A DNA stretch of 64,000 nt. It comes from Chthoniobacteraceae bacterium (GTDB taxonomy: Bacteria; Verrucomicrobiota; Verrucomicrobiia; Chthoniobacterales; Chthoniobacteraceae). The DNA lies in NCBI GenBank assembly GCA_028293625.1, contig JAQGOL010000024.1, forward strand, positions 124,001 through 188,000, given 5' to 3'. Of this stretch, positions 27,101 to 50,928 are shown one piece after another. The translations under genes and the position numbers were made by a program. A model generated the notes under the pieces. It saw only the letters and a program-made list of their open reading frames with translations. It searched no databases and was not told the DNA's origin. The number at the start of each line of letters is the position of its first letter. Position 1 is the stretch's first letter.

Positions 27101-28115
27101 GCATGATAAGCCGGTAAATCGGCATTGCGCCTGCATAGACCGTATCGTCGACCTGGTAGAGAGCGTTGCAAAACTGGTCAGTGATGCCGTTTGCGTCGAT
27201 GGATGGAGCGGGCCAGGTGCGCGATCTCCCGCCGGAATCCTGTGCCTGCACATAAAATTCGACGATGGTGCCGTTGGCCTGCGGCGGGATCACCGCGCCG
27301 TAGATGCGATCGTTTGCGAGGGCGTCTCCGTGCAGGCCGTCATCGAACATTGGAGCCGAAGTGAACGCCGCCACGCCATCGTTGCGGTATTGCAATGTAA
27401 CCGTCACGCCCGAGGTCTGCTCATCGAGAACCTGCGCAGTGATAGTAACCGGACTGTCATGCGCGGGCACGAGCGGGAAATGGACGACATCGAGGATGAC
27501 AGGTGCGATCTCATTTTTTGCAACGCTATTAGCAACGCCGGGCGTGCCGCCGGCTGGAGTGCTGGCGGCCCAGTTTTGTCCAAGGTTATTGTCGGCGGCC
27601 ACGCTGATAAGTTCAAGGGAACTACCTAAACCATCGGCATTGCTCTCCCAGCTCCAGCCCTTGTATCCGAAATCCGCAACGACATCCTGTTTTCGAACGC
27701 CCCAATCGCCGTCATCCGAGTAAGAGACGGTATCCCGGGTGACGTTTAAACTATCCTCGAGAACGATCTTGTTGGAGCTGTTGCTAAGCTGTCCGACCCA
27801 TCCGGCCTGGCTCACGTATCGGGTTACACTCGGATACTTTGCGTGAAAAACCGCGGGATCGGCCGCGATGACCAGGTAACCGCCCGCCGCAATGCTGGTG
27901 GCATTGGGAAAGGTAAACTGCACCCCGCTGGTTAGTTTCCACCCGCTCAGATCAACACTGCTTACGCCTGAGTTATAAATTTCAATCCATTCATCCGCCG
28001 CCAGCTCGCTCTGTGGATGATACATGAGCTCATCGATTAAGACGTCAGCTCGGGCGCCAAACCCAAAAGTCAGCAGGGCAACGGCAAATAGGAGAGGGGA
28101 TGAGAAAACTCGCAT
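21153..28115 (-). CDS. Giant secreted protein: CotH kinase, beta-helix and five lamin-tail domains
   Basis: A 2320-residue exported protein (signal peptide ending FGFGARA). Order: lamin-tail domain 1 (about 25-190, VLIDELMYHP ... DEWIEIYNS), a CotH-type kinase domain (about 330-760, with the metal motif PYDLDTICG near 623), a right-handed beta-helix region (about 830-1290, GRTLTIQPGTNVYC ... DDCLDLDSADAWIEGN), lamin-tail domains near 1402, 1547, 1893 and 2047, a calcium-binding-type DSDNDGLPSEWE segment near 2192, and a C-terminal strand-rich domain that may serve as an export or anchoring tag. CotH kinases phosphorylate protein in other bacteria (family knowledge); the target here is unknown. 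A 1237-residue relative is encoded at 42594-46307. It is probably a cell-surface or released protein. Confidence 0.88.
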   Translation of the reverse strand: MRVFSSPLLFAVALLTFGFGARADVLIDELMYHPQSELAADEWIEIYNSGVSSVDLSGWKLTSGVQFTFPNATSIAAGGYLVIAADPAVFHAKYPSVTRYVSQAGWVGQLSNSSNKIVLEDSLNVTRDTVSYSDDGDWGVRKQDVVADFGYKGWSWESNADGLGSSLELISVAADNNLGQNWAASTPAGGTPGVANSVAKNEIAPVILDVVHFPLVPAHDSPVTITAQVLDEQTSGVTVTLQYRNDGVAAFTSAPMFDDGLHGDALANDRIYGAVIPPQANGTIVEFYVQAQDSGGRSRTWPAPSIDANGITDQFCNALYQVDDTVYAGAMPIYRLIMRQIDKDTLVQIHGGSASHAKFNTTWITLDGTSSEVRYLAGSRNRGHGSATANPQGLNITFTNERPWKGVRTLNLNTQQTYAQLFGSALMRKIGLPAPSSRQVQVRWNGLDESLPGSPSFGFYVANEVQDSEFAAHHFPLDSGGNVYRAQRYDGTPPPNTMADAYLEYQAPAAGQQPADPYRTVYFKNTNSSEDDWSDLIGLTRALDKGHSDATYNTTYDADYVASVQTVTDVEEWMRFFAAEALVDNSESNIWSGYGDDYCLYFGTPGLAPHDPRAKLVPYDLDTICGQGDTRPSPTQHDLFRMINKDDNTGGGPVGPTPMNAFIKNPSFAPIYYKQLKELIDGPFAKANFDALVDSVLTGVVPQVRIESIKTFQSKLPTNPADPRSGGRTAYIASLIPLNISVTSGPALLSGYPHTTTATTALTGTANAIDTRSVKVNGVAAAWTAWTASWSAPSVALLPGINKVLIQSFDDNNTELERFTYDIWYDDATVASAGGTLAADTIWTAAAGPYRLTSNLVVPAGRTLTIQPGTNVYCANGTSAYSITVNGTGKILATGTETKRIVFTRAPGSTVNWTSLDFINTTVESKLSYVSFEYCGGSTIGGHEAQIHSNNAIVFFDHFTFPPTPAIEYMSFDAASFIVQNSIFPTYPEGTAQESLHGINGIMAGGHGVFRDNYFGHTWGFNDTIDFTGGQRLGTGAGPILQVINNVFDGATDDCLDLDSADAWIEGNVFMHVHRDPNRTDDARDTGSAISGGVDFANQLPDWTVINNLFYDVDHVFLNKGKTTTAPGDGGGRVAFLYNTVAHVAREGSGSPLSDIAAFIWSDDGVALPAASLGSGLYAAHNIIYDCAVLHKFYDPANHTVIMDNNILSVPWTGAGSGNKVIDPRLNLGVLNGTAVANVTADQLRKAYQLLPGSPALGAGFGGRNIGGLGAHGIAIDGEPIGTTNATTATLTIGPGGTFNWGTITAQPWGWTAYKWKLDNGAYSEEIPITNNSPFTALPTISLTGLANGTHTVSVIGKSDAGFYQDDTLIYPLTSGTPGAATVSRTWTVNTAYVPPAAQPNVRINEVLAKNSETQGFSGVFPDMIELYNAGGATATLTGWGLTDNTTIPYKYTFPATTLAPGAYLIVYAESSSSVPQPRTGFSLKQSGDTLTLTKSAAQGGGVQDSVSFGNQLSDYSSGRRSDGVWDLCVPTFGSPNVVAAQGSPKALKINEWLTEARTLFADDFIELFNPSSLPVNIGGGYLTDNPVEWITRHQIRQLTFLPPGGFSVFKADGNTDSGADHLSFKLSPTEGEIGLFTADQQLIDSIVYGSQSTDVSQGRSPNGSAIIVTFNQPTPGAGNPGGAVTGGTTTTSVNVIPVTQSWKYYPGATAAPPLDAQNRAFSDTAYIDTAWSSGAQLLYIEDSGLTNAEGFSKTNGTLLTGYTATRPYQTYYFRTHFTYSGSLANLTLAAKIMVDDGCIVYLNGQEIVPITGARIGMAAGAFTYATQANRTNEAVIETFTFPADQLVVGDNVIAVEVHQANTQTLTSGSSDIVWGMKLDAETIVSAAASTPVVINEVLARNIAANPDGSTSGWIELYNSATTSYDLSDMSLTDEVDMPRKWVFPAGSTIPADGYLAVYCNSLLPRSTTNVPAPNTGFGLNGSGDAVYLFKKIADGGNLHDSVVYGLQVPNFSIGRVPNGTGPFVLSQPTRGALNDILHVAGTASITGSVKLNEWMSNPAPLPGPVAQPGWFELYNSASLPVLLSGNYLTDNLTAGNRTKYLIPPLTYIGSGPNAWATLIADNAIGNSGHVNFTLDRGGESLAIYSGNQVQIDVITYTPQYPGVSAGRFADGSNTILSFFGTPTPGAMNLFSTDSDNDGLPSEWEATHGLDWNNPADADQDADSDSQSNLTEYNAGTDPFSSASKFTLSLTGQATGQTHIQFVAQPNKGYSVQYKSALTDAFWTKLSDVPAQSAARAVDVPDNTAGISRRFYRVVTPQQP

Positions 28116-35448: not shown

Positions 35449-38400
35449 TCAAGGCTTGCGCAGATAGCCAAGAAGATCAGCGACATCCTGTGGCTTGAGA
35501 ACGGACTCGAGTCCTTCGGGCATCAGCGAGCGGCCCAATGGTTTGATACTGCGCAGCTCCGAGCGGAGCACCGCCTGCTCGACCCCTTCAGGAGTGCGGA
35601 GCGTGATGTTGTTGCCGGTCTCGCCCACAAGCAATCCGACTAGTTCATTGCCGTTATTTAATATGAGATGCTGTGCAATGTAACGCGCTTCGATGGCCTG
35701 GTTGGGATCGAAGAGCGCGGTGAGTATCCAGTCGTCAGGTTTGCCAACGATTGTCCCGAGGTCGGGTCCAAGCTCGCGGCCTTCGCCATGAAGCCGATGG
35801 CAGGTCGCGCAGATCTGCGTATAAAACGTCCGGCCGCGCGATGGATCTGCGCGCAGTTTTTCCACGCCCGAATAAGAGGCGACAACCCGTGCCCGGTCGG
35901 GGCTGCTTGGCGCGAGTTTGGGAACGGGTGAAGCCGGCGTGGTGCCGGGCTTTTTTCCTTCAGTCAATTCTGCCATCAACGAGTTATCGGGACCGATCGA
36001 AGAGAGAACCGCAACGCGCATTCGCGGATCACCACCTTCACGTTGGGCCAGCCGCTTGAGAGCTTCCGTGGCAGAGGCTGTTTTCGATTCACCCAAAGTA
36101 AATGCGAGCTGAAGGCGGACCGCGAAATTCGCGTCATTCTCAAGTGCGATCGCTGCTGCCAGCAATGTCTCGGATTTATTCTTTTCGCTTATTCGCAATG
36201 CCTGTATCCGAACCTCCGGTTCCTGATCGCGCAATGCGGCTACAATTGCGTCGGTTTTCGCCGAGTGGAGTAGTTCGAGCGTTGCGAGCGCCTGTAGCCG
36301 CACTTTGGCGAGGGACGAACCGGATGCGAGCTTTGCCAGGGGTTCAGCCGCGGCGGAGTCGGCGCGCTCGTAAAGAAGACGCTGAACTGTGTCACGCTGC
36401 CAGCCGTTGGCGCTTTCCATCGCTCTGACAAGCTGTGCCGTGTTAAGCTTGGCAAGATTTGGCACAGGCTTTAGAAGCGCTTTCTCCGGCAAAACACGGT
36501 AGATGCGTCCTTTGTCCTGACCGGCGCGCAGATCAAGCCGTGCCTGCGTTTCCGGTGCAATCCACTCGGGATGCTCCAATACAAAGCGATACATGTCGGC
36601 GATGTAGAGAGCGCCATCGGGTCCCGTTTTTACCATGGCCGGGCGAAACCAGACGTCGCTGCTGGCAAGGAATTCGCGGTCTTGTTCGTCGTCGGCTCGG
36701 CGGCTGGTGAATGTCGCGCCTTCAGCTTTAAGAACCTCGCGGTGGACGCTATTGTGCACCGGTTCGCTAATGAAGACGCTGGTTAGAAAATCGGGTCCGA
36801 AAAGATCGTCCCGATACGGCGCCGCACTGCAGGCGGAAGTAACATGGCCAAGTGACTGCGGCTGGTTGAATCGAATCGGCTGCTCGCTGATTGGGAAGAC
36901 GCGGGTTGATTCCTCGTAGTTGGCAAGCAACTCGCGCACGGACTTCACCGCAAGCTTCGGATTTCTTCGAAGGTAATGTTCTTCCAGCGTGTAATGCCAA
37001 AGCCATGTGCTGTTGTTGTTCCCGAACCAATGGCCCCAATCATCGCGGCGTCTGCCAAATTGCGTGGAGCCGGAAACGGCTTCAAACTCGCCGGTATCGG
37101 GTCGGAACCGAAAATCGCGTCCGCTGATCGAGACCGGAGTGCTCTGTTTATCCGGTTTGGTTTGCAAAGAGCCGACACATTGAACTTCGCCGCCGCTATC
37201 ACCGTTTGCGCCGTAAATCCAGCCGTCGAGCCCCCATTCAAATCCGTTTAATCGATGCTGTTGGTTGCCCTGTTTGAATCCGGTGAAGAGGACCCGGCGC
37301 ACATCGGCGTGTCCGTCGCCATCGGTATCTTCCGCGTAAAGTATGTCGGGCGCGGCGCAGATCAGGAGGCCGTTTCGGTAAGGCATCACGCCGGACGGAA
37401 AGGGGAGCCCTTCCATAAACGGCGTGGCTTTGTCGTAAATGCCGTCGCCATTGGTATCTTCGAGCAGCTTGATCACGCCTCCGGCTTTTCCTTTGCCATC
37501 CATGCCAAGTGGATAATCGCGCATCTCGACAACCCAAAGCCGGCCGATAGAGTCCCACTCGAAAGCGATCGGATCGATAACAAGCGGCTCGGCGGCGACC
37601 AGCTCCACCTTAAATCCGGCACGGACCCGGATCGCGGCAAGGGAATCCCCAGGTGACTTCGGCGCTGGCACATCAAAGGCGATCAGTTCCTGAAAAGAGC
37701 GGCGATCCACCACTCCATCCAGCTTTACGGTCTCCTCATTTTGCACGACCAGATGACCGTCCTTAAACCAAGCGCCATTGTTGCGATGCCGCCCGTCGCG
37801 GACAATCGGCGGCGGCTCATTGGCCATTCCCTGGCGAAGCCCGGCGCGCACCATCTGCGACCAGCCCGATGTCCAGCCCAGGTTCGGTTTCACCTCCTTG
37901 CTCCAGAGGTGAATGGCAAATCGCGACGTGTTGGAAAGGAGCAGATCGTCCGCGCCATCCGCGTTCAAATCGACAAAACGGAGACCGGCATCGGCGCCAT
38001 CTTTATCGAGTGCGGCGATTCCTTCAGGGAGGGCGAACTCTGCCCGCTCCCAACGTTTCGCGGCTGCCGACCAGGTTTGGATAACCGTGAGTTCTGGTTC
38101 ATTGGCGAGCAGTTCACAGGAAGCATCGCCATTAAAATCGCGCAGTCTCAGCGAGCTGTGCGATGGAATCCCAACGGCCAGTTCGGGCGCCGCGATCCAG
38201 TGACTTTCGTGAAAACGCCAGCCTTGCGCCGGCGCGCCTGCGCGCAACGCGACAGGCTCGCCGTCGATCACGCCGAAGTTCAGGTCCGGAGAGGCTTTGA
38301 AGGGCGCCGGGCTGTCTACCCAGCGAGTTTCCTGAGGCGACCAAAGCCGCGCGACCTGACCGGCCAGCACATCCATGAAGCCGTCGCCATTGAAGTCGAG

Positions 38401-39489
38401 GAGCCGCACGCTGCCCGGACCGCCATCGCGCGCCCGCAAGGAATGCCCGGCGAGTGCGTGTTTCTCAAGCCGCCCGAGCGCTTCGGTAAAGTTGAGAAAC
38501 TTCACTCGCCGCCCGTATTTTGCGACCGCGTGCTCAATCAATGCGACGATCTGTTGTGGATCGCTCCATCCATGAGGATGCACCAGAATCGTCATCACGC
38601 CTTGTTTAAGTACCACGGCATCGAGCGCGGCTTTCCAGTCTTCAGTTGTGCGCTGATTTTTCGCCCCATGCGTATTGAATGCCTCCCAGTCGCTCGGAGC
38701 CATTGGAGGAAACTCCCAGCAGCCGCCTCCAATTACATACGGATACGGGTAATTCTCAATATAGCCGGCAAACCGCTCGAACGTGACCTTGCGCGGAGGC
38801 ACGAGATCCATCGGGAAGTATTTACGGAAACGGTCCGCGCCGCTCGCATCAACAACCAGCTCGTGCGGGAGCGTGGTATCGCCTGACGTGAGCAGGCACA
38901 TGACCGAGGAATCAATCTGCAGGTGGCGACCTTCCGGACTGCGGCCCGAAAAGATCTCGGAAAAAAAGCGCGGACTTGCCGAGTTCATGGAATCGCAGCA
39001 AGGCATGCGAAACGCCAGCGGGAGATTGCCCGGAATGCTGGCGAGCTGGTCAATGCCGCCAAAGACGGTTTGTTGCGCGGCTGAAAAGCCTGTTTTCCCA
39101 AGCAACGGACACGGATGCGTTAGAGTATGCACTTCAAGGGAGACGCCTTCCTTAAGCCAGCTCTGAAATTGGGGATCGGTGGGCACCAGCTGATTGCAAA
39201 AAATGCTGGTCGGGGCGCGCCCATCAATCTGCTGAAGCCGCTGGAGAATGGGCCGCAGGTAAGCTTCGTATTTTGGCGTTTCGCGCAAGTCATCAATCGA
39301 GATGATTACGGCGGCATCGACGCCAGGCTCTCCGATCCATTGCGGTGTTGTAAATCGCGCCAGCCCGGCATGGGGATAAAAAGGATTGTCATCGTCAAGG
39401 TAAGCGAGCCGGTTGGCGGGATGCTCGGCAGAACGAAGGGGCGCCGTAAGAAAGATCAGGGTGAAGACAAGGAGAGTCGTGCGGATCAT
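35449..39489 (-). CDS. Secreted polysaccharide-deacetylase-like / VCBS / PVC-propeller / HEAT / cytochrome c protein
   Basis: A 1346-residue exported protein; the ATG at 39489 begins the signal peptide MIRTTLLVFTLIFLTAPLRS, so the 13 codons upstream are left out. Domains: a NodB-like deacetylase (about 55-340) with the SIDD pair (Asp66-Asp67) and HTLTH (His121, His125), which matches the Asp-His-His metal site; an FG-GAP/VCBS region (about 355-560; LLDFNGDGFMDVL, LRDFNGDASCELL, FVDLNADGADDLL); a PVC-type propeller (about 620-1000; AGFKVELVAAEPL opening); HEAT-like repeats (about 1030-1190); and a cytochrome c with CATCH (Cys1227, Cys1230, His1231). This joins a carbohydrate de-N/O-acetylase fold to a periplasmic oxidoreductase. 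A role in polysaccharide breakdown is inferred. It diverges from the ceramidase-like gene. Confidence 0.87.
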   Translation of the reverse strand: MIRTTLLVFTLIFLTAPLRSAEHPANRLAYLDDDNPFYPHAGLARFTTPQWIGEPGVDAAVIISIDDLRETPKYEAYLRPILQRLQQIDGRAPTSIFCNQLVPTDPQFQSWLKEGVSLEVHTLTHPCPLLGKTGFSAAQQTVFGGIDQLASIPGNLPLAFRMPCCDSMNSASPRFFSEIFSGRSPEGRHLQIDSSVMCLLTSGDTTLPHELVVDASGADRFRKYFPMDLVPPRKVTFERFAGYIENYPYPYVIGGGCWEFPPMAPSDWEAFNTHGAKNQRTTEDWKAALDAVVLKQGVMTILVHPHGWSDPQQIVALIEHAVAKYGRRVKFLNFTEALGRLEKHALAGHSLRARDGGPGSVRLLDFNGDGFMDVLAGQVARLWSPQETRWVDSPAPFKASPDLNFGVIDGEPVALRAGAPAQGWRFHESHWIAAPELAVGIPSHSSLRLRDFNGDASCELLANEPELTVIQTWSAAAKRWERAEFALPEGIAALDKDGADAGLRFVDLNADGADDLLLSNTSRFAIHLWSKEVKPNLGWTSGWSQMVRAGLRQGMANEPPPIVRDGRHRNNGAWFKDGHLVVQNEETVKLDGVVDRRSFQELIAFDVPAPKSPGDSLAAIRVRAGFKVELVAAEPLVIDPIAFEWDSIGRLWVVEMRDYPLGMDGKGKAGGVIKLLEDTNGDGIYDKATPFMEGLPFPSGVMPYRNGLLICAAPDILYAEDTDGDGHADVRRVLFTGFKQGNQQHRLNGFEWGLDGWIYGANGDSGGEVQCVGSLQTKPDKQSTPVSISGRDFRFRPDTGEFEAVSGSTQFGRRRDDWGHWFGNNNSTWLWHYTLEEHYLRRNPKLAVKSVRELLANYEESTRVFPISEQPIRFNQPQSLGHVTSACSAAPYRDDLFGPDFLTSVFISEPVHNSVHREVLKAEGATFTSRRADDEQDREFLASSDVWFRPAMVKTGPDGALYIADMYRFVLEHPEWIAPETQARLDLRAGQDKGRIYRVLPEKALLKPVPNLAKLNTAQLVRAMESANGWQRDTVQRLLYERADSAAAEPLAKLASGSSLAKVRLQALATLELLHSAKTDAIVAALRDQEPEVRIQALRISEKNKSETLLAAAIALENDANFAVRLQLAFTLGESKTASATEALKRLAQREGGDPRMRVAVLSSIGPDNSLMAELTEGKKPGTTPASPVPKLAPSSPDRARVVASYSGVEKLRADPSRGRTFYTQICATCHRLHGEGRELGPDLGTIVGKPDDWILTALFDPNQAIEARYIAQHLILNNGNELVGLLVGETGNNITLRTPEGVEQAVLRSELRSIKPLGRSLMPEGLESVLKPQDVADLLGYLRKP

Positions 39490-39688
39490 GGGGGGAAATA
39501 GCACCGGGGCGTCGGCTTGAATCGCCAACGCAAGCTATGAGCAGCAGCGCGATGATTGTCGGCAGGAAGCGGGGTGCATGACTTCTATAATCCACCTGGT
39601 CGCGGTTTCTTCATTGAAATCCGCAGTCACAGTCATCGGTGTCATATTAGCTTCAACCTGGCTGACGTACGCTGTAATTTCCGCGTCC

Positions 39689-42593: not shown

Positions 42594-45500
42594 ATGTTGC
42601 CTCCCCCTGTCAACGCCCTGCGCGCCCTCGGAGCGTTTTGTCTTATATGGCTAAGCGTTATCAATTTAAATGCGCAGGTTGTTATTAATGAGATCCATTA
42701 CAAGCCACTGGATCCAACAAAATCGATCGAGTTTATAGAGCTCTATAATGCAGGCACTGCGGCCGCCGACATTGGGCTCTGGCGTTTGGAAGATGCCGTT
42801 ACGCTCATTTTCCCGAGTGCGTTGACGATTCCCGCCGGTGGTTACCTTGTTGTCGCAGGCAACGCGCCCGCGTTCCAAACCCAATACGGGTTTGCGCCGG
42901 CGGCAGTTTATTCGGGCTCATTGAATTCTTCGGGCGAACGCATTCAACTGCGCAACGCCTCCGGGCAAATTGTTGATAAGGTTGATTACAGCTCCGGATT
43001 TCCGTGGCCTACTTCTGCCCGGGGCGGCGGTTTTTCCATCGAGCTGATCAATCCGCTGCTGGATAACGAACTGGGCGGTTCCTGGCGCAGTTCCACCGTT
43101 TCAAACGGCACTCCACGCGCAAAAAACTCCGTACTCGCAGCCAACGCGCCGCCCGCCATCCGGCAAGTTGATCATTTTCCTCTCCAACCGCCAAGTGGCG
43201 CGGTGGTGACCATTACGGCGAAAGTGAGCGATCCGGATGGAGTCGCTTCAGTCAATCTTGAATACCAGATTGTCTCGCCGGGCACCTATATTCGCAAAAC
43301 TGACGCCGCCTTTACAACCTCGTGGGTGGCGACGCCGATGCATGACGATGGCCTCAATGGCGATACTGCTGCAAGCGATGGAATCTACTCGGTGCAAATT
43401 CCGGCTACGGTGCAGACGCATCGCCGTCTGATTCGTTACAGGATTGCTGTAGCCGATAGCCTTGGGCTTTCCGTGCGAGTGCCATACGCAGACGACGAGC
43501 AACCTAACTTTGCTTACTACGTCTACGATGGCGTGCCTGCCTGGAGTGGTGCCGTGTTGCCCGGAGGAACCGGCACGCGCGCTCTGGTTCAGACCTTTTC
43601 TCCCGCGTTGCTGAACTCCATCCAGACATGGCAGCTCATTTCTAATTCGGCGGATGTGATTAATTCCCAGTACTCAAGCGGGTCCGATAGCGTCCGTTTT
43701 TTAGGAACGCTAATCTACGAGGGGAAAGTCTACGATCATATCCAATATCATAACCGCGGCATCGGTTCGACTTATGTGAGCGGTAAGAATAAATGGGTCT
43801 TTTTCTTCAACCGTGCTCGCGACATCCGTGTGCGGGATAACTGGGGCAATTACTACAAGGAATCATGGAACTCGATGCCGATGGATGCATGCGCGTCGCC
43901 TTGGGCGGCGGTGCATCGCGGAATGGCCGGAGTCGAGGAGGCATTCGCTTACCGGCTCTATGAGCTTGCTGGAATGGCCTCGCTGCGCACCCATTACATG
44001 CATTTCAGGGTGGTAAGCGGCGCAACCGAGACTGGCGCAACCCAGTATGACGGCGATTTCTGGGGCTTGTATATGGGACTCGAGCCGACCGAGGGCAACT
44101 TCCTTGATGAACGCGGCCTGGCAGACGGCAATATCTATGCGGTGGAGGGCGGCGGTGGCGACAAGAAGCATCAGGGGCCCACGCAGGTTGTTTCCGCCGC
44201 TGACTTTGCCGCCTTCAATTCCAGCGCGAAACAGGTTGGTCAAACTGAGGCGTGGTATCGCGCCAACATGGACCTTAACGCGCTCTATACCTTTCACGCC
44301 CTCAACCGTCTATGCGGCAATGTTGATGTGCGGGGCGGCGACAATTATCGTTTCTATCATCGGCCCACGGATGATCGTTGGGCTATTATCCCGTACGATC
44401 TCGATATGATGGCGCTGCCCGCCTATCATTGGGGCACGGTAATTGAGGGCGTTAATTTCGCCGGGGTCCCCGACCAGATCCGAGCCATCACGCGCAACGC
44501 GGCAATTGCGATCGAGTTTCGGAACCGGGCGCGCGAACTGCTTGACTTGGTTGCATCGGATAACACGGCCAATGGAGGGCAAATTGGCCAGTTGCTCGAT
44601 GAATACGCGCGCATGGTGAACCCAACCGGAGTGAATCCAAGCTGGGTCAATGTCGATGAGGCGCGCTGGAGCAATAGTCCAAGAACGACCGGCAACGGTG
44701 CCAACAACGGCCAGACCAACCATAAGAACAATTTCTATCGGGCAATCTTCACTGACACTCGAGGAGGTTTGAACGGCACTCCTTCGACAACCTGGACGCG
44801 GACCCTTATTAATGCCGATGCCAATGGATACAGCAACTTCGCGGGTTCGATGAACTATCTTTTGAAGTTCACGACCAATACATGGCCCGGTGGAACGTGG
44901 TTGCGCAGCAACGGCAACCCGCTCGGAAACGGCTACAAATATCTGGAATGGGAATCGCTCTATGGCGGATACGGAAATGTGAACGCGGCACCGACGGGCC
45001 CGGGGGATCTTTCCTTCCCCGGCACACCGGCCATTGCTTATTCGGGTGCGGCCGGTTTCCCTGCGGACGCGCTTGATTTTACGAGCAGCGCGTTTACCCC
45101 TTCAACCACGGGCGGGACGACATTTGCCGCGATGCAATGGCGGATCGGCGAGATCTACGCGCCGGGTGTTGCCGGCTACCTGCCTGGAGAGCAGCGTATC
45201 TATGAAGTTGAACAAGCCTGGACTTCCCCTGAAGTGGCTTCGTTTAGCGCTACGGCACGTGTCCCATTTGGCTCGGTCAAGCCTGGCCATACCTATCGTG
45301 CACGGGTCCGTCATAAGGATGCAAATGGGCGATGGAGCCATTGGTCCGCCCCGGTGCAGTTCAGCGCAGGCATACCGAGTGTGACTGCCTATCAGCAGGC
45401 GCTTGTAATCAGTGAGGTGATGTATCAGCCATCGCCCGCCACCGCCTCGGAGCTGTCGCAGGGTTGGACCGATGATGATTTCGAATTTATCGAGATCCGC

Positions 45501-46307
45501 AATGTTGGCGGCGCGGTCCTTGATATGAGCGGACTGCGACTGACCAAAGGTGTCGACTTCGATTTTCCTTCGCCCTTTTTACTTCAACCCGGTGCGAGCA
45601 CCCTCATTGTTCACAACGCTGCTGCATTCAACTCACGTTACGGCGGAGGCAAGCCGATTGCCGGTGTCTGGCAAGCAGGCAACAAGCTTAGCGATGATGG
45701 CGAACAAATAAAACTGAGCTATGGCGCCGGTGCTGAAGTGATCAGCTTTACCTATTCCAATGTTTCCCCGTGGCCGCTTAACACTGTCGGATATAGCCTT
45801 GTGCTAAGCCGGCCCGAAACAAATCTCGGTTCGATAGCGCAAGACGATCCTGTCAACTGGCGTATCAGCCGCCTGGCTGGCGGCAGCCCGGGATCGGACG
45901 ATCGCCCGCTCTTTGCGTCGTGGTTGGCGGCAAGCGGGGCAGGAGGCGACGAGCTATCCGATCCGCAGGGAGACGGCGTGGTAAATTTGCTTGAATATGC
46001 GTTTGCGGGCGGACCAGCGGTTCCAAGCCAATCGCTGCTTCCTCTCTCCGGGACGCAAAGGTTTCTGGTGAATGGAATAAGCAGCGATTACCTGACCCTG
46101 ACATTCCAGAGGCAGTTCGGCGCGGAGGATATTGAGTTCCATGTCGAATTTACGAACGACATTGGTGGCGGCGCCTGGCTGCAAAATGGTTTGCTTGTCA
46201 GCTCCACGCCAACGCCGGATGGCAGCCGTATTGAGGTGTGGCGCGCAAATGAGCCGCTGTCGGCCGGAGCCGTCCAGTTTGGACGTGTCCGCGTGGTCAA
46301 ACCGTAG
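42594..46307 (+). CDS. Secreted CotH-kinase / lamin-tail protein
   Basis: A 1237-residue exported protein (signal peptide ending SVINLNA). It has a first lamin-tail domain (about 28-180, VVINEIHYKPLDP ... EFIELYNAG), a linker domain with a DDGLNGDTAASDGIYS turn (about 245-270), a CotH kinase domain (about 330-700; QYHNRGIGSTYVSGKNKW, WGLYMGLEPTEGNFLDER, metal motif PYDLDMMAL near 600), a fibronectin-like segment near 850-925 (HTYRARVRHKDANGRWSHWS), a second lamin-tail domain (about 935-1110, ALVISEVMYQP), and a C-terminal strand-rich region. It is a smaller relative of the 2320-residue protein at 21153-28115. The substrate of the kinase-like domain is unknown, and its location is surface or extracellular. 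Confidence 0.87.
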   Translation: MLPPPVNALRALGAFCLIWLSVINLNAQVVINEIHYKPLDPTKSIEFIELYNAGTAAADIGLWRLEDAVTLIFPSALTIPAGGYLVVAGNAPAFQTQYGFAPAAVYSGSLNSSGERIQLRNASGQIVDKVDYSSGFPWPTSARGGGFSIELINPLLDNELGGSWRSSTVSNGTPRAKNSVLAANAPPAIRQVDHFPLQPPSGAVVTITAKVSDPDGVASVNLEYQIVSPGTYIRKTDAAFTTSWVATPMHDDGLNGDTAASDGIYSVQIPATVQTHRRLIRYRIAVADSLGLSVRVPYADDEQPNFAYYVYDGVPAWSGAVLPGGTGTRALVQTFSPALLNSIQTWQLISNSADVINSQYSSGSDSVRFLGTLIYEGKVYDHIQYHNRGIGSTYVSGKNKWVFFFNRARDIRVRDNWGNYYKESWNSMPMDACASPWAAVHRGMAGVEEAFAYRLYELAGMASLRTHYMHFRVVSGATETGATQYDGDFWGLYMGLEPTEGNFLDERGLADGNIYAVEGGGGDKKHQGPTQVVSAADFAAFNSSAKQVGQTEAWYRANMDLNALYTFHALNRLCGNVDVRGGDNYRFYHRPTDDRWAIIPYDLDMMALPAYHWGTVIEGVNFAGVPDQIRAITRNAAIAIEFRNRARELLDLVASDNTANGGQIGQLLDEYARMVNPTGVNPSWVNVDEARWSNSPRTTGNGANNGQTNHKNNFYRAIFTDTRGGLNGTPSTTWTRTLINADANGYSNFAGSMNYLLKFTTNTWPGGTWLRSNGNPLGNGYKYLEWESLYGGYGNVNAAPTGPGDLSFPGTPAIAYSGAAGFPADALDFTSSAFTPSTTGGTTFAAMQWRIGEIYAPGVAGYLPGEQRIYEVEQAWTSPEVASFSATARVPFGSVKPGHTYRARVRHKDANGRWSHWSAPVQFSAGIPSVTAYQQALVISEVMYQPSPATASELSQGWTDDDFEFIEIRNVGGAVLDMSGLRLTKGVDFDFPSPFLLQPGASTLIVHNAAAFNSRYGGGKPIAGVWQAGNKLSDDGEQIKLSYGAGAEVISFTYSNVSPWPLNTVGYSLVLSRPETNLGSIAQDDPVNWRISRLAGGSPGSDDRPLFASWLAASGAGGDELSDPQGDGVVNLLEYAFAGGPAVPSQSLLPLSGTQRFLVNGISSDYLTLTFQRQFGAEDIEFHVEFTNDIGGGAWLQNGLLVSSTPTPDGSRIEVWRANEPLSAGAVQFGRVRVVKP

Positions 46308-46374: not shown

Positions 46375-48867
46375 CTACCAACGATCCATGACGAGCTGAA
46401 GCAGTTCGTCGCCGCTTTTTCTGGAGGCAGCACCGTGGGGACAGGCGGCAACACAGCGCGGTTCAGGCGTCGACTTGTGTCCGCCTGCGTCGCACAGATC
46501 GCACGTGACAGCTTTAGGCTGGGCGATTTTGATCGTCTGGCCGGCAAATTCCGGGTGCGGCACCTCAATACGGCGGCGCTCATTCGGCATCATGGAGATA
46601 CTGCCGTATGGGCAGTTGGAGGCGCAGAGGCCGCATCCGATGCAATGATCCTCGATGACGATCTGGAGATGTTTTCCACGGTGGATCGCGTCGACCGGAC
46701 AACCGACCATGCAATGGGCGTCGGTGCAGGAGCGGCACGAGGTGGCCACCATGAACTTGTCGAAACGCAAGCCATCCCGGAGCATCCGCGCGATCGGGAC
46801 GCCATGCGATTCGCTGCCGTGCTGATCGATACACCCCTTGGTGCATTCATCGCAGCGGACGCAAAGATCCATATCGAGCACCAGGATGCTTTGCCCTTCA
46901 TACATGCCCTGGTTGACGAACTCCTGAAGCACCGGATGTCCCAGCGTGCTCCGAAGCCGGGCAAAGGATTGCTCCACGAGCCGTCTTCTGAGCACGCGGA
47001 ACTTTTTAATCATTTGCAGGAAATCGCTCCGGCTCAGGCGCGCCAGTTCGAGGTATCCAAGGGCTGAACAAGTGGCTGTGCTGGTGCCCCAGGGGAAGCT
47101 GTTTTCAACATCGTCGCCGGCAAGGTCGAGCGCGGCTTTGATCTCGTCGTCAACCGCCTCGATCGTTTTATTAAGATCACTTGGGGAAAGGGCCATCAGA
47201 CCGATTTCTCCGAGCATCGTTCCCGGTCCGGAGGAGATCACCTTTGCCTCTTTGCCATAACGCCGGGTCCCGATTCGGACGTGTCCAAGGCGGACCATAT
47301 AGAGATCGGTCACGCGATCGCCCTGTTGAAAGAGATCCTGTCCCGGTTTGACCCGCACAAAAGTGAGGCGATCCCGGAGGTAATCGACGATTTCGCGATA
47401 CTCCTGTGGGCGCATTTCCCTGAAGAGATCACTTCCCTGCAGCACCAGATCCAATGAGCGCTTCCGGTAGGCCGCCTCGAATTTCTGGCGCTGTTTTGGA
47501 AGACGCATCAGCCGGTCGAGCACGTTTCGGCGGACCTCCCAAACTTCGCCATCTTCGAGCGCGGTGACGGTTCCCGAACGCGGCGAGCCGCTCATGCATG
47601 CCATTTCACCAACGATGGTGTCAGCGGGTGTCAGGTTGATGCGGAGCAACGGTTCACCTTTGACCCCGAAAAGACCGAGCAATCCGCCGGATCCAATCGC
47701 CGTATTGTGGACTGTTACCTCGAGCTTGCCCTTTTTGATGATGAAAGCCGTGTTGCCCGCATCGCCTTGATTACAAAGCACTTCTCCGGCTTTAAAGCGG
47801 CGGCGGACGACCAGGCCTTGTTGCCAGAGGAGAAACTTCGGCGGGACTCCTGAGAAAATCGGGTCAACGGTCAGTTCCTTGGCGGGCAATACTTCGATTG
47901 CACGAGCCTGAGGCGGGAGCTTGATCTGGGCGATTGGTTTGAACGTAATGGCGCTGGTCGGGCAGGAAACCATGCACTCGCCGCATTGGACGCAGCTCGA
48001 GGAGCCCATCGGATCGTTCAGATCAAAACCGATCCCGGCGTTGGATCCTTTGCCCGTGCGGCCGATCACGTTGTTTTCCATCACCTCGTTGCAGGCGCGC
48101 ACGCAACGATCGCAAAGAATACAGGCGCTATGATCAACCAGGAACACCGGCGAAGAGGCGTCAAACGGACGGCGGCCAGCCAGCTCTTTGGCCGGCAAGG
48201 GCGGATTCGATAAAACGTCGAGCTTGTAGCGGTTCGGATCGGCGCCGCAACGGGTTGTCATCTGGCCAAGCTCATTGAACGGAGCAAGGTCTTTTGCCGG
48301 GGAAGCGTTTTCGGCCGGCTTAAGATGATTGGAACCAAGCAACTCGGTCATCACTTTGACCGTCTGCCGGACCCGATCACCGTCGGCCCCCTCCGCTTTC
48401 ATTGTAAAGACTTCCATCCCGTCCTTTACCTGATGCTGGCAGGCTGGGAGGAGTTTGCGTTCGGCCGCGCGTTTGCCGCGTTTCTGGCCGTAAATCTGCA
48501 CCACGCACAAGCGGCAGACCGCGACCGGGGTCATGTGCGGCTGATGACAGAGAACCGGGATAGGGATCTTGGCTTCATCCCCGGGCTCCAGGACATAGAG
48601 CTTGGTGGCCGCGTCGAGGATCGTCGTATAGCGCGGGGTGGTGCGTCCTTCGAGATCGACGATGATGTTGCCATCGGCATCACTCAAAGGCTCGGCCAAC
48701 GGCACAGTCACTGATTGGCCATCGATCTGAAGAGTGACCTGCTTGTCGTAATCGGATTCGGTAGGGGAATCGAGGCGGACAAGCTGTCCATTGATATCGC
48801 GACTAAACAGGCCTTCATCGTCATCACGAATGAGCGGCCCTGGGATCAGATCGGGAATGATTGCCAT
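46375..48867 (-). CDS. Fused NuoG-type iron-sulfur / double cyclic-nucleotide-binding / four-cluster ferredoxin protein
   Basis: An 830-residue cytoplasmic protein with no signal peptide or membrane helix. Residues 43-145 form a NuoG/HoxU-like [2Fe-2S] domain (Cys107, Cys118, Cys121, Cys143). The next NuoG element, the His-Cys3 cluster, is lost: only His181 and one cysteine (Cys207) remain. Residues 245-310 bind two [4Fe-4S] clusters (Cys249/252/255/259 and Cys292/295/298/302). A cyclic-nucleotide-binding domain at about 345-475 has Gly420-Glu421 and Arg430 (GEMACMSGSPRSGTV). A second at about 490-640 keeps Gly553-Glu554 but lacks the Arg. Residues 662-815 form a ferredoxin of the four-cluster type (Cys669/672/675/679, 711/714/719/723, 742/745/748/752, 789/792/805/809). 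Its partner is the NuoEF fusion 21 bp upstream. A cyclic-nucleotide-controlled electron relay is inferred; the terminal acceptor is unknown. Confidence 0.85.
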   Translation of the reverse strand: MAIIPDLIPGPLIRDDDEGLFSRDINGQLVRLDSPTESDYDKQVTLQIDGQSVTVPLAEPLSDADGNIIVDLEGRTTPRYTTILDAATKLYVLEPGDEAKIPIPVLCHQPHMTPVAVCRLCVVQIYGQKRGKRAAERKLLPACQHQVKDGMEVFTMKAEGADGDRVRQTVKVMTELLGSNHLKPAENASPAKDLAPFNELGQMTTRCGADPNRYKLDVLSNPPLPAKELAGRRPFDASSPVFLVDHSACILCDRCVRACNEVMENNVIGRTGKGSNAGIGFDLNDPMGSSSCVQCGECMVSCPTSAITFKPIAQIKLPPQARAIEVLPAKELTVDPIFSGVPPKFLLWQQGLVVRRRFKAGEVLCNQGDAGNTAFIIKKGKLEVTVHNTAIGSGGLLGLFGVKGEPLLRINLTPADTIVGEMACMSGSPRSGTVTALEDGEVWEVRRNVLDRLMRLPKQRQKFEAAYRKRSLDLVLQGSDLFREMRPQEYREIVDYLRDRLTFVRVKPGQDLFQQGDRVTDLYMVRLGHVRIGTRRYGKEAKVISSGPGTMLGEIGLMALSPSDLNKTIEAVDDEIKAALDLAGDDVENSFPWGTSTATCSALGYLELARLSRSDFLQMIKKFRVLRRRLVEQSFARLRSTLGHPVLQEFVNQGMYEGQSILVLDMDLCVRCDECTKGCIDQHGSESHGVPIARMLRDGLRFDKFMVATSCRSCTDAHCMVGCPVDAIHRGKHLQIVIEDHCIGCGLCASNCPYGSISMMPNERRRIEVPHPEFAGQTIKIAQPKAVTCDLCDAGGHKSTPEPRCVAACPHGAASRKSGDELLQLVMDRW

Positions 48868-48888
48868 AAATTAGTCTCTGTTTTTAGT

Positions 48889-50928
48889 TCACTTCCCGAC
48901 TTTGGGTTGAAGGTGCTTGAGAACATCTTCCTCAAAATAACTGACGAGCGTGCGCAACGGTGCCGGCACCGAGCGGCCCAGACCGCAGATGGAGGCCAGC
49001 TCAATCGCTCTTCCGAGCTCCTTGAAGAGCGGCATCAATTCATTATCCCACCTTTCAGCGCTGATCTTTCCATCGATCAGATTTTCCATCAGCGAAGCCA
49101 GCTTCTGTGATCCCAGCCGGCACGGCACGCATTTGCCGCACGATTCGTTCCGGTAAAACTCGAGCGAATTGACGGTCTGTTCGGCCATGTCGCGGTCATC
49201 GGCGTAAATGACCATGCCCGCTCCCAATGCCTGGGTGGGGCTCAGCGATCGGAAAAGATTGAGTTCCAGTTCCAGGTCAAGGATATCGAGTTCGGTCGCC
49301 GCCGGATCGGTCCCGCGCCGTCCTGCCAATGCCTGCCACGCTTTATTGTTGGTATGATCCCTGGGAAGGCCGCGTTCGACAGTAAGTCTGGCCGGCAGAA
49401 ATCCGCCTGAAGGTCCCGAAGGCGCCACGCCCTTGAGTTTGCGGCCGCCGCTGATGCCTCCGCAGTATTGTTCGCCATGCACGAGTTCGCGCAAAGTCAT
49501 GCCCATCGGCACTTCATAAACGCCGGGGCGCACCACATCGCCGGAGATTGAAAAATAACGCCGGCCTTGCCAGCCATTGACTCCTTCCGCGGAGTAACGC
49601 TTCCCGGAATTGACCAGGATATAGGGCACCCAGGCGAATGTCTCCACGTTGCTGACCAGGGTGGGAAGATCCTGGAGCCCGTTGGTTTCCAGCTTGGGCG
49701 GCATGTTGCGCGGTTCACCCCGGCGATCCGACATCGCTTCAATCAGCGCGCTCTGTTCTCCACAGATATAACCGCCCGGACTTACAAACACCGAGATCGG
49801 GAATGAGCGTCCAAGCACCGTCGCGTTCTCGCCGCAAAAGCCAAGCGACGCCGCCCGTTCAATTTCCGCGCGGCATGCTTCGATCTGTTCGCCATATTCG
49901 TGGCGGATATAAATGAATCCCTGGGTGGCTTCCGTGATGAGTCCCGCCAGGATGACCGCTTCAATAATCAGGTGCGGAGTGCGCAGCAGCAGCTCGCGAT
50001 CTTTAAATGTGCCGGGCTCGCTTTCATCGCCGTTGACCACGATAAACGCGCTGTCATCGGTCTGCCGCAGGCGCGCGGTTCGAACCGCATCACGCACGTC
50101 GCGCCATTTCTGGATCACAGGAATGCCGGCGCCGCCCAGGCCGCGCAGATCGGCATCCTTGATCTCGTTTAAAAGCGTATCGGACCAGCCACCAAGGGTT
50201 GGCCCTTTTGCCCAATCGCCTTCGGTCTGCCAGTTGCGGACTGCTTGCTCAACCAATGGATTGATTGAAACCTCGCCCTGCAATTGGCGCACGGCGCCGC
50301 GCCGGAACTGTTCGATCAGATCCGCGCCCCATTCAAACCGTTCCCTGAGAATAGTGGTGGCGATGCCCAAAGAAGTATCGCGTGCAGCTACCGCATGGCG
50401 GACCGCGATATAATCCGGCGTCCTGCCACTGTATAAATTAACAGGCGCATCGCTTAGCGTGTCAGGGAGATCGGCATCATGATCGGCCGGCGGATGCTCG
50501 TCAGCCAGGCAGGCGGCTACGATCTCTTTCAGCTCCGCTGCCGAGCGGCCCAGATAATAGGCTTCATGCTCGGAGCCCTGCACCGTCACGCACGCCGCCA
50601 TCGCCCTGTCGCACCGGCCGAGGCATGAGACGCCTTCAACACCGACATCTTCACCGACGATCGATTGAAGCTCTTTGACCGTCTTTCCGCCGCCTGCGAG
50701 ATTGCAGGCCATATCCCGGCAGACCCGCAAGACCACCTTCTTTGGCGGAACCAGTTGGAAATGGGGAAAGAAGCTGGCGACAGCCTGCAGCTTTTGCTGA
50801 GGGACACCAGATTCCTTGGAAAATTCTTCGAGTGCGTTCCTGTTGAGATAGCCGAATTGTTTTTGGATTCGGTGCAATGCAGGAACGAGCACGGCACCAT
50901 AGGTCGGGAGTCTCGGCGGGGTACTCAT
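48889..50928 (-). CDS. NuoE-NuoF fusion, NADH-oxidising diaphorase subunit
   Basis: A 679-residue protein. Residues 5-145 are NuoE-like with a [2Fe-2S] site (Cys70, Cys75, Cys102, Cys106). A linker to about 240 leads to NuoF, with the NAD/FMN-binding blocks RGLGGAGIP (about 262-270), NGDESEPGTFKDREL (about 299-313), YICGEQSALIEAMSDRRGEP and SNVET, and the N3-type [4Fe-4S] site Cys597, Cys600, Cys603, Cys648 (ESCGKCVPCR, ICGLG). An insert of about 35 residues near 515-550 (VERGLPRDHTNNKAWQALAG) interrupts the usual NuoF sequence. Proteins of this kind oxidise NADH and pass electrons to a partner in complex I, NAD-linked hydrogenases or formate dehydrogenases. Here the only partner gene is the fused Fe-S protein downstream. 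Confidence 0.93.
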   Translation of the reverse strand: MSTPPRLPTYGAVLVPALHRIQKQFGYLNRNALEEFSKESGVPQQKLQAVASFFPHFQLVPPKKVVLRVCRDMACNLAGGGKTVKELQSIVGEDVGVEGVSCLGRCDRAMAACVTVQGSEHEAYYLGRSAAELKEIVAACLADEHPPADHDADLPDTLSDAPVNLYSGRTPDYIAVRHAVAARDTSLGIATTILRERFEWGADLIEQFRRGAVRQLQGEVSINPLVEQAVRNWQTEGDWAKGPTLGGWSDTLLNEIKDADLRGLGGAGIPVIQKWRDVRDAVRTARLRQTDDSAFIVVNGDESEPGTFKDRELLLRTPHLIIEAVILAGLITEATQGFIYIRHEYGEQIEACRAEIERAASLGFCGENATVLGRSFPISVFVSPGGYICGEQSALIEAMSDRRGEPRNMPPKLETNGLQDLPTLVSNVETFAWVPYILVNSGKRYSAEGVNGWQGRRYFSISGDVVRPGVYEVPMGMTLRELVHGEQYCGGISGGRKLKGVAPSGPSGGFLPARLTVERGLPRDHTNNKAWQALAGRRGTDPAATELDILDLELELNLFRSLSPTQALGAGMVIYADDRDMAEQTVNSLEFYRNESCGKCVPCRLGSQKLASLMENLIDGKISAERWDNELMPLFKELGRAIELASICGLGRSVPAPLRTLVSYFEEDVLKHLQPKVGK

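Follow-up and report, generated by a model that had tools for sequence, protein, structure and literature searches.

NuoE and NuoF domains together with a NuoG/HydA-like head occur in complex I (NuoEFG), in HydABC-type hydrogenases and in NAD-dependent formate dehydrogenases, four-cluster iron-sulfur domains occur in subunits of the HydN/HycB/DmsB type, and tandem cyclic-nucleotide-binding (CNB) domains with a cassette Glu and Arg occur in the regulatory subunits of PKA and PKG. The Hmc and Tmc complexes connect the cytoplasmic membrane with periplasmic multihaem cytochromes c, and the transmembrane complexes Hmc, Tmc and Nhc have a membrane subunit of the NrfD or NarI type. CymA, CbcL and ImcH also join the cytoplasmic membrane to periplasmic multihaem cytochromes c and are, in the parts of the source covered here, given as actual or proposed quinol oxidases (PMC6295460, 2018). 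For Verrucomicrobia, clusters encoding a porin and multihaem cytochromes, among them a periplasmic cytochrome with eight haem sites, have been proposed to serve extracellular electron transfer (EET), with the inner-membrane step left as 'ET in IM' in the portions of that paper considered (PMC5615132, 2017). Here we describe a gene pair in which domains of the first three kinds are joined, located in a 64,000-nt stretch of a Chthoniobacteraceae genome (GCA_028293625.1, contig JAQGOL010000024.1, positions 124,001 to 188,000; hereafter the window). We consider it probable that the two proteins form the cytoplasmic arm, oxidising NADH, of an electron pathway that crosses the membrane and whose flow is set by a cyclic nucleotide. 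The component set of this pathway is well supported by gene content, conservation, linkage, co-occurrence and invariant residues, and from it we infer the haem b content, transfer order, outward direction, gating and extracellular acceptor proposed below.

The pair consists of two minus-strand open reading frames (ORFs), both open and separated by a gap of 21 nt (48889-50928 and 46375-48867). Their features are as follows, with residues numbered in amino acids (aa):

48889..50928, minus strand: NuoE-NuoF fusion of 679 aa, the NAD(P)H/flavin mononucleotide (FMN) diaphorase subunit (Pfam 2Fe-2S_thioredx, Complex1_51K, SLBB and NADH_4Fe-4S).
50584..50895, minus strand: NuoE-like [2Fe-2S] thioredoxin-fold domain, aa 12-115 (PF01257; C70, C75, C102 and C106 invariant in 23 aligned sequences).
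49624..50163, minus strand: NuoF FMN/NADH domain, aa 256-435 (PF01512, E 3.9e-35).
48913..49170, minus strand: NuoF C-terminal [4Fe-4S] domain, aa 587-672 (PF10589; C597, C600, C603 and C648 invariant in 23 sequences).
46375..48867, minus strand: 830-aa iron-sulfur protein with head, CNB, CNB and tail, 21 bp downstream of the NuoEF gene (ORF, Pfam and homologue alignment).
48403..48744, minus strand: NuoG/HydA-type [2Fe-2S] head domain, aa 42-155 (PF13510, Fer2_4; C107, C118, C121 and C143 in 37/37).
47938..48138, minus strand: ferredoxin domain of the head for two [4Fe-4S] clusters, aa 244-310 (Fer4 matches; eight Cys in 37/37).
47503..47805, minus strand: CNB1, aa 355-455, cassette GEMACMSGSPRSG with Glu and Arg (PF00027; E421 and R430 in 45/45).
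46993..47379, minus strand: CNB2, about aa 497-625 (E554 in 45/45; Arg in 44/45, the window copy having S596).
46414..46884, minus strand: four-[4Fe-4S] HydN/HycB-like tail, aa 662-818 (Pfam/NCBIfam; 16 Cys in 37/37 head-bearing and 8/8 headless homologues).

The fusion has the ligand features of complex I NuoEF for FMN, [2Fe-2S] and [4Fe-4S], and the GxGGAG and NGDESEPxTFKDRE motifs of its NuoF domain are invariant or near-invariant across the 23 aligned sequences. On the 830-aa protein Pfam finds Fer2_4, the head Fer4, two cNMP_binding stretches and the tail Fer4s in turn. Conservation was counted in an alignment of 45 core sequences, 37 head-bearing and 8 headless, the core being the CNB and tail part, which also occurs without the head. 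A preliminary description of the window, made from its letters alone, had named the fusion and the 830-aa protein 21 bp apart, the cysteines for one [2Fe-2S] and six [4Fe-4S] clusters in the latter, and an NADH-linked iron-sulfur module whose head and tail are separated by tandem CNB domains. ORFs and Pfam confirm the first of these; the 28 cysteine positions are each occupied in 37/37 aligned head-bearing homologues; and the third is borne out by Pfam and by the conservation of the CNB cassettes.

Although the pair shares domains with complex I, HydABC-type hydrogenases and formate dehydrogenases, its conserved gene set is without a recognised catalytic or pumping subunit, its head is fused to CNB, CNB and tail, and no NuoH/antiporter membrane arm is linked to it. 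The His-Cys3 cluster of NuoG (NADH-G_4Fe-4S_3) is absent from the 830-aa protein, in which no PF10588 match was found and C207, kept in just 15/37 head-bearing homologues, is the sole Cys between C143 and C249. The window's genome (6.83 Mb, 43 contigs) encodes a separate complex I on contig C19, where a further NuoEF and a NuoG that has the His-Cys3 domain lie beside two Proton_antipo_M proteins and the genome's single NuoH match. Since C19 has its own NuoEF and NuoG beside the only NuoH, that complex I does not have the window pair as its input arm. Matches of the pair in the PDB include formate dehydrogenase, HydA/HydB, NfnB and complex I subunits, and its NCBIfam scores lie far under the family cut-offs (124.9 against 765; 104.7 against 333). 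A fragment of complex I, a hydrogenase module or a formate dehydrogenase module was thus rejected on the missing His-Cys3 domain, the lack of such partners among the annotated neighbours and the separate complex I. The 830-aa protein differs as well from HydN/HycB/DmsB-type subunits, its tail following tandem CNB domains in one chain and being linked to a cytochrome b that matches no Pfam family above the cut-off, and from PKA and PKG, its CNB pair lying inside an iron-sulfur electron carrier with no kinase beside it. We note that NuoE and NuoF are also fused in the complex I of the window's genome (672 aa, G000:C19; L054:9234-11252).

A scan of named genomes yielded 51 loci, 46 of which (L003-L048) contain the head-bearing type, whole or in part. 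The remaining L049-L053 were not counted as the same system; among them, the Cloacimonadota loci L049-L051 match through the head and NuoEF alone and have no cytochrome b or decahaem match. Full-length homologues of the 830-aa protein share 62-69% identity within Verrucomicrobia and 57% in a Riflebacteria metagenome-assembled genome (MAG); identity falls to 38-41% for those of Planctomycetes and to 35% for L040, an unplaced 'Bacterium'. The core sequences closest to that of the window come from a Chthoniobacter MAG, a second genome of the same genus and a Chthoniobacterales MAG, and named strains with homologous loci include Gemmata sp. IIL30, Zavarzinella formosa and Limnoglobus roseus. A NuoEF homologue was found in all 42 named loci that have a homologue of the 830-aa protein and at least 200 nt upstream of its gene. 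The predicted head/CNB/CNB/tail architecture is far beyond chance. Beyond the named genomes, sampling covered one verrucomicrobial class (286 genomes) and one planctomycete phylum (294 genomes). Neighbour content was taken from profile searches over all ORFs of the loci, of which high-GC loci yield antisense ones.

Partner genes recur beside the pair in its relatives. Sequence reaching 5.6 kb or more upstream of the gene for the 830-aa-type protein is available at 30 named loci, and 25 of them have both a cytochrome b gene and a decahaem cytochrome gene, and with at least 7 kb upstream (n=26) these two are present in 21 loci and a gene for a c554-like cytochrome in 21. The usual order is cytochrome b, decahaem, NuoEF, 830-aa type, with deviating orders in Riflebacteria (L018) and in planctomycetes (L133, L141, L147 and L149). 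On contig C34 of the window's genome, genes for a cytochrome b, a decahaem protein (10 CxxCH) and a c554-like cytochrome are grouped. Sixteen genomes were tested for a cytochrome b match and 14 have one (partial in 3 of the 14), those of L003 and L049 being without. At an E value of 0.001 or better, and with up to 8 candidates scored per genome, cytochrome b was matched in 43/286 genomes of the verrucomicrobial class and in 81/294 of the planctomycete phylum, many of the latter matches being weak. Three sets of 20 regions, one from the class and two from the phylum, were chosen by their cytochrome b match, which is therefore present by construction; the core was found in 19, 17 and 17 of these regions and the decahaem gene in 20, 20 and 19. 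The claim that nothing of the kind known to be fed by such diaphorases is adjacent stands for the window and fails in general, as relatives carry partner genes next door. Linkage to a hydrogenase or formate dehydrogenase, which the preliminary description likewise did not see, was not found among the annotated neighbours in the window or the conserved neighbour families, neighbours at single loci being annotated in part.

The cytochrome b is a membrane protein of about 300 aa in which H98, H112, H275 and H289 are present in 103/103 sequences, one 191-aa fragment being left out of the count. The His pairs, H98/H112 and H275/H289, are each spaced 14 apart and fall in helices 91-113 and 239-299 of a confident model of the L006 protein (predicted local distance difference test, pLDDT, 88.9). 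Hydropathy gives five peaks in two members and six in one distant member. Two His pairs with parallel helices would be the classical, FRD/b561-like arrangement for two stacked haems b, and we regard the protein as a putative dihaem cytochrome b. Its representatives match no Pfam family above the cut-off, and it may be remotely akin to NrfD- or NarI-type subunits. The decahaem protein has ten CxxCH motifs in 98/101 members, nine in two and fourteen in one; L020 (partial, 5), L045 (partial, 4), L144 (12), L167 (7) and L171 (23) were left out of this count by score or length. The copy in the window's genome has one hydrophobic segment near its start.

Electrons would enter this set when NADH reduces the FMN of NuoF, and would pass from the NuoF [4Fe-4S] cluster to the [2Fe-2S] cluster of the head and on to its two [4Fe-4S] clusters. 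They would then cross the region that holds the two PKA-type CNB domains, reach the tail with its four [4Fe-4S] clusters and be handed to the membrane protein with two invariant His pairs and, as proposed, two stacked haems b. The next carriers would be a decahaem cytochrome c, which lies in the periplasm with an anchor in the membrane, and cytochromes of the c554-like kind. In many relatives an onward route to the outer membrane may be provided by a beta-barrel protein and an exported decahaem protein with an LVIVD propeller.

The evidence for this last step comes from neighbourhoods and from co-occurrence. An outer-membrane-barrel-like protein recurs near the system at 19 loci and ends in F or Y in 11/11 aligned sequences, the barrels tested having no Pfam match. 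An LVIVD-repeat protein of about 1,300 aa, apparently exported, recurs at 16 loci, with nine or ten CxxCH motifs in 10/10 aligned sequences. Neighbour clusters 26, 27 and 37 were dropped, as they look like antisense or out-of-frame reads of barrel or LVIVD genes. The barrel and LVIVD genes are adjacent in several genomes, and at L113, L126 and L127 the genes for core, cytochrome b, decahaem protein, barrel and LVIVD protein follow one another on one strand. In the window's genome they stand apart, the barrel gene on C24 beside an HbpS-like gene and that of the LVIVD protein (ten CxxCH) on C38. Among 40 genomes of the family, 23 have the core (14 head-bearing, 9 headless). Cytochrome b was found in 22 of these 23 and in none of the 17 genomes without the core, the decahaem protein in 23/23 and 1/17, the barrel in 22/23 and 1/17, and the LVIVD protein in 21/23 and 1/17; weak matches (decahaem in G010 and G021, LVIVD in G016 and G024) are left out of these counts. 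The 40 genomes are mutually related and some are identical to those of named loci: by contig coordinates G318, G320 and G321 (L009, L019 and L008) look like G025, G027 and G026. One genome, G030 (76% complete), has the decahaem, barrel and LVIVD proteins and neither core nor cytochrome b. Chance neighbourhood of the partner genes was rejected on the linkage across two phyla and on this co-occurrence. HbpS-like proteins also recur near the system (16 loci, e.g. L173:9591-11324 and L018:13495-15165), and a pentahaem c554-like protein with a barrel-like protein forms a second conserved pair beside headless cores at 12 loci (such as L169:17462-19390 and L157:3379-5007).

An extracellular end of the pathway is plausible because the barrel and the LVIVD protein recur beside the system, co-occur with the core and exist in the window's genome. 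The strongest alternative, which we hold to be a real though lesser possibility, is that the route stops, beyond the inner membrane, at a periplasmic reductase or an oxidase branch instead of reaching the outside, and that the barrel and LVIVD proteins are unrelated to the pathway and merely present in the same lineages. The location of the two genes on contigs other than that of the decahaem gene in the window's genome would agree with such an end, as would several LVIVD proteins that have no evident N-terminal lipobox; the gene runs from core to LVIVD protein on one strand, the co-occurrence across the 40 genomes and the barrel C-termini argue for the outer membrane instead. The verrucomicrobial clusters proposed for EET belong to the same phylum and combine a porin with multihaem cytochromes, as the barrel-like and decahaem proteins may do here; they differ in an eight-haem rather than a ten-CxxCH cytochrome and, in the parts of that paper covered, include no NADH module or CNB protein (PMC5615132).

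Whether flow is set by a cyclic nucleotide is a question about the CNB domains and the possible source of their ligand. The cassette Gly-Glu and the Arg of CNB domains contact the ligand. CNB1 keeps its cassette Glu and Arg in every one of the 45 aligned homologues and CNB2 its Glu, while the phosphate-binding Arg of CNB2 is lost from a single sequence, that of the window itself, in which S596 takes its place; about 33 residues are inserted in CNB2 between the cassette Glu and the Arg position. Probably one working nucleotide site is left in the window copy, with CNB1 alone able to bind. A pattern search over 108 cores found at least one Glu/Arg cassette in 107 and two in only 74. In the proposed mechanism a class III cyclase would make the cyclic nucleotide, the CNB pair would move on binding it, and a change in the docking of head and tail or in the distance between them would set the flow; we regard such gating as likely.

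Class III cyclase genes are present in 15 of 106 loci, namely 8/46 named loci, 0/20 class-level regions of Verrucomicrobia and 2/20 and 5/20 planctomycete regions; these loci vary in length and a few come from one genome. In another set of 20 regions a cyclase was found only in two that repeat L012 and L013. The link to a cyclase is not general, given its absence from the 20 class-level verrucomicrobial regions and, apart from the repeats, from these further 20. The linked cyclases carry CHASE2 (L011, L012), FHA (L152, L164) or TPR (L144) as partner domains, or show, at the threshold applied, just a catalytic domain (L030, L132, L156), and they stand in several orientations and gene orders. 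Guanylate_cyc totals were 2-5 per genome across the ten planctomycetes examined and 4-24 across six Verrucomicrobia whose loci include a cyclase, and CHASE2 totals 1-3 in ten genomes. Judged by these totals, cyclase adjacency is above chance in several lineages, related genomes not being independent. The window's genome has ten Guanylate_cyc matches, none of them on C9 or C34. At L012, L013, L015, L020 and L026 the gene of the 830-aa type is followed in the same order by a FecR-domain gene, a gene with no Pfam match and a CHASE2-cyclase gene.

The CNB pair could instead be a structural spacer or an assembly module of a constitutive pathway. We think this unlikely. The missing Arg of CNB2 in the window, the small share of loci with a nearby cyclase (15/106) and a second cassette pattern in just 74/108 cores would be expected of a spacer; less so the near-complete retention of ligand-contacting residues in both domains (Glu and Arg of CNB1 and Glu of CNB2 in 45/45, Arg of CNB2 in 44/45), the presence of at least one cassette pattern in all cores save one, and linked cyclases with varied partner domains in several gene orders.

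The cytoplasmic end can be judged from cores that lack the head. In Verrucomicrobia and Planctomycetes the CNB/tail part is also found without it, and the cytochrome b and decahaem genes again lie next to it. A tree built from 108 core sequences by a quick method, with long branches flagged, places the head-bearing form in a clade of 50 and, apart from that clade, in the pair of L141 and L147, which amounts to two label changes; there are three if the long-branched L150 is counted as head-bearing, and two without L150 and L151. At the planctomycete locus L150 (15018-18340) the 830-aa-type protein is split, with head and CNB domains in one ORF and the four-cluster tail in the next, and NuoEF is present. 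A deep headless clade comprises 31 of the 108 tree rows, and 24 of its 31 loci hold a gene for an FNR-type, transmembrane-anchored FAD/NAD reductase with a C-terminal [2Fe-2S] domain, as annotated from two representatives; L123, L152, L153, L154, L159, L160 and L164 do not. This gene adjoins the core or sits one c554-like gene away, except at L125, and outside the clade a strong match was found solely at L167, where no core was found. That one core goes with NAD(P)H modules of two kinds argues that NAD(P)H is the cytoplasmic partner.

The same complex could also work inwards, with electrons from a periplasmic or extracellular donor reducing NAD+, a reading to which we give rather low probability. 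Sequence does not fix the direction, NuoEF-type modules are reversible, and some c554-like partners match Pfam Cytochrome_C554, a name that covers cytochromes accepting electrons from periplasmic enzymes. However, the conserved neighbour families that were annotated include no recognised donor-oxidising enzyme, and uphill reduction of NAD+ from haems by a system with no ion-driven subunit would need donors of very low potential. A soluble cytoplasmic NADH hub with no fixed membrane partner, as the preliminary description had it, is very improbable: cytochrome b and decahaem genes are not beside the pair in the window or, with at least 5.6 kb upstream, at L007, L008, L009, L016 and L019, yet the window's genome and all five others carry cytochrome b elsewhere, core and cytochrome b co-occur almost completely, and the partners said to be missing (cytochrome b, decahaem c and c554-like c) are conserved beside the pair in relatives and present on C34 in its own genome.

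Several observations weigh against the outward, gated pathway that we prefer. In the window neither a partner gene nor a cyclase lies beside the pair, and the outer-membrane step is drawn from linkage in some genomes and from co-occurrence in others. A middle group of headless cores has no NAD(P)H input gene recognised nearby; at L090, L101, L119, L129 and L130 core, cytochrome b and decahaem genes occur with no recognised NAD(P)H module close by. The predicted model of the 830-aa protein is weak (predicted template modelling score, pTM, 0.47), so that distances between its clusters cannot be judged from it. Its top Foldseek rows in the PDB are tandem CNB domains of the PKA and PKG regulatory type, with modest matches (TM-scores by target do not exceed 0.44, and root mean square deviations are large). 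The cytochrome b has no sequence match in the PDB and, with the L006 model, no clear fold match there, which is not evidence of a new fold. To these are added the loss of the CNB2 Arg in the window, the cores with fewer than two cassettes and the restricted occurrence of linked cyclases described above.

Elsewhere in the window are two large DUF7133/HEAT proteins (5796-10226 and 35449-39528), the second with a cytochrome c domain, and two large proteins with lamin-tail domains and CotH (21153-28115 and 42594-46307).

In agreement with the preliminary description, which knew of no described system of this gene composition, a search of the open-access literature showed, among the papers listed, none announcing the gene set. 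The parts are of known kinds; for the assembly, and for its NAD(P)H input and receptor domain, we found no earlier description. The inner-membrane entry points of known EET, CymA, CbcL and ImcH, are actual or proposed quinol oxidases in the parts of the source covered (PMC6295460); here, in contrast, the core is found with NAD(P)H modules, and no subunit with a quinone site was recognised, no search having been aimed at one. Tentatively, we propose a quinone-bypassing respiration in Verrucomicrobiota and Planctomycetota, in which an NAD(P)H-fed iron-sulfur relay, itself a cyclic-nucleotide receptor, would open or close a wire to cytochrome b, decahaem protein and outer-membrane conduit, with interchangeable input modules (NuoEF head or FNR-type). 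The core would offer a candidate for the inner-membrane step that the verrucomicrobial porin-cytochrome hypothesis, in the portions considered, leaves undefined (PMC5615132). Metabolism and signalling would be linked in a new way by a conserved core that goes with NAD(P)H modules and has a second-messenger receptor built in; if the proposal is true, a respiratory enzyme would be controlled directly by a signal molecule, and respiration to outside acceptors would be switched by a second messenger.

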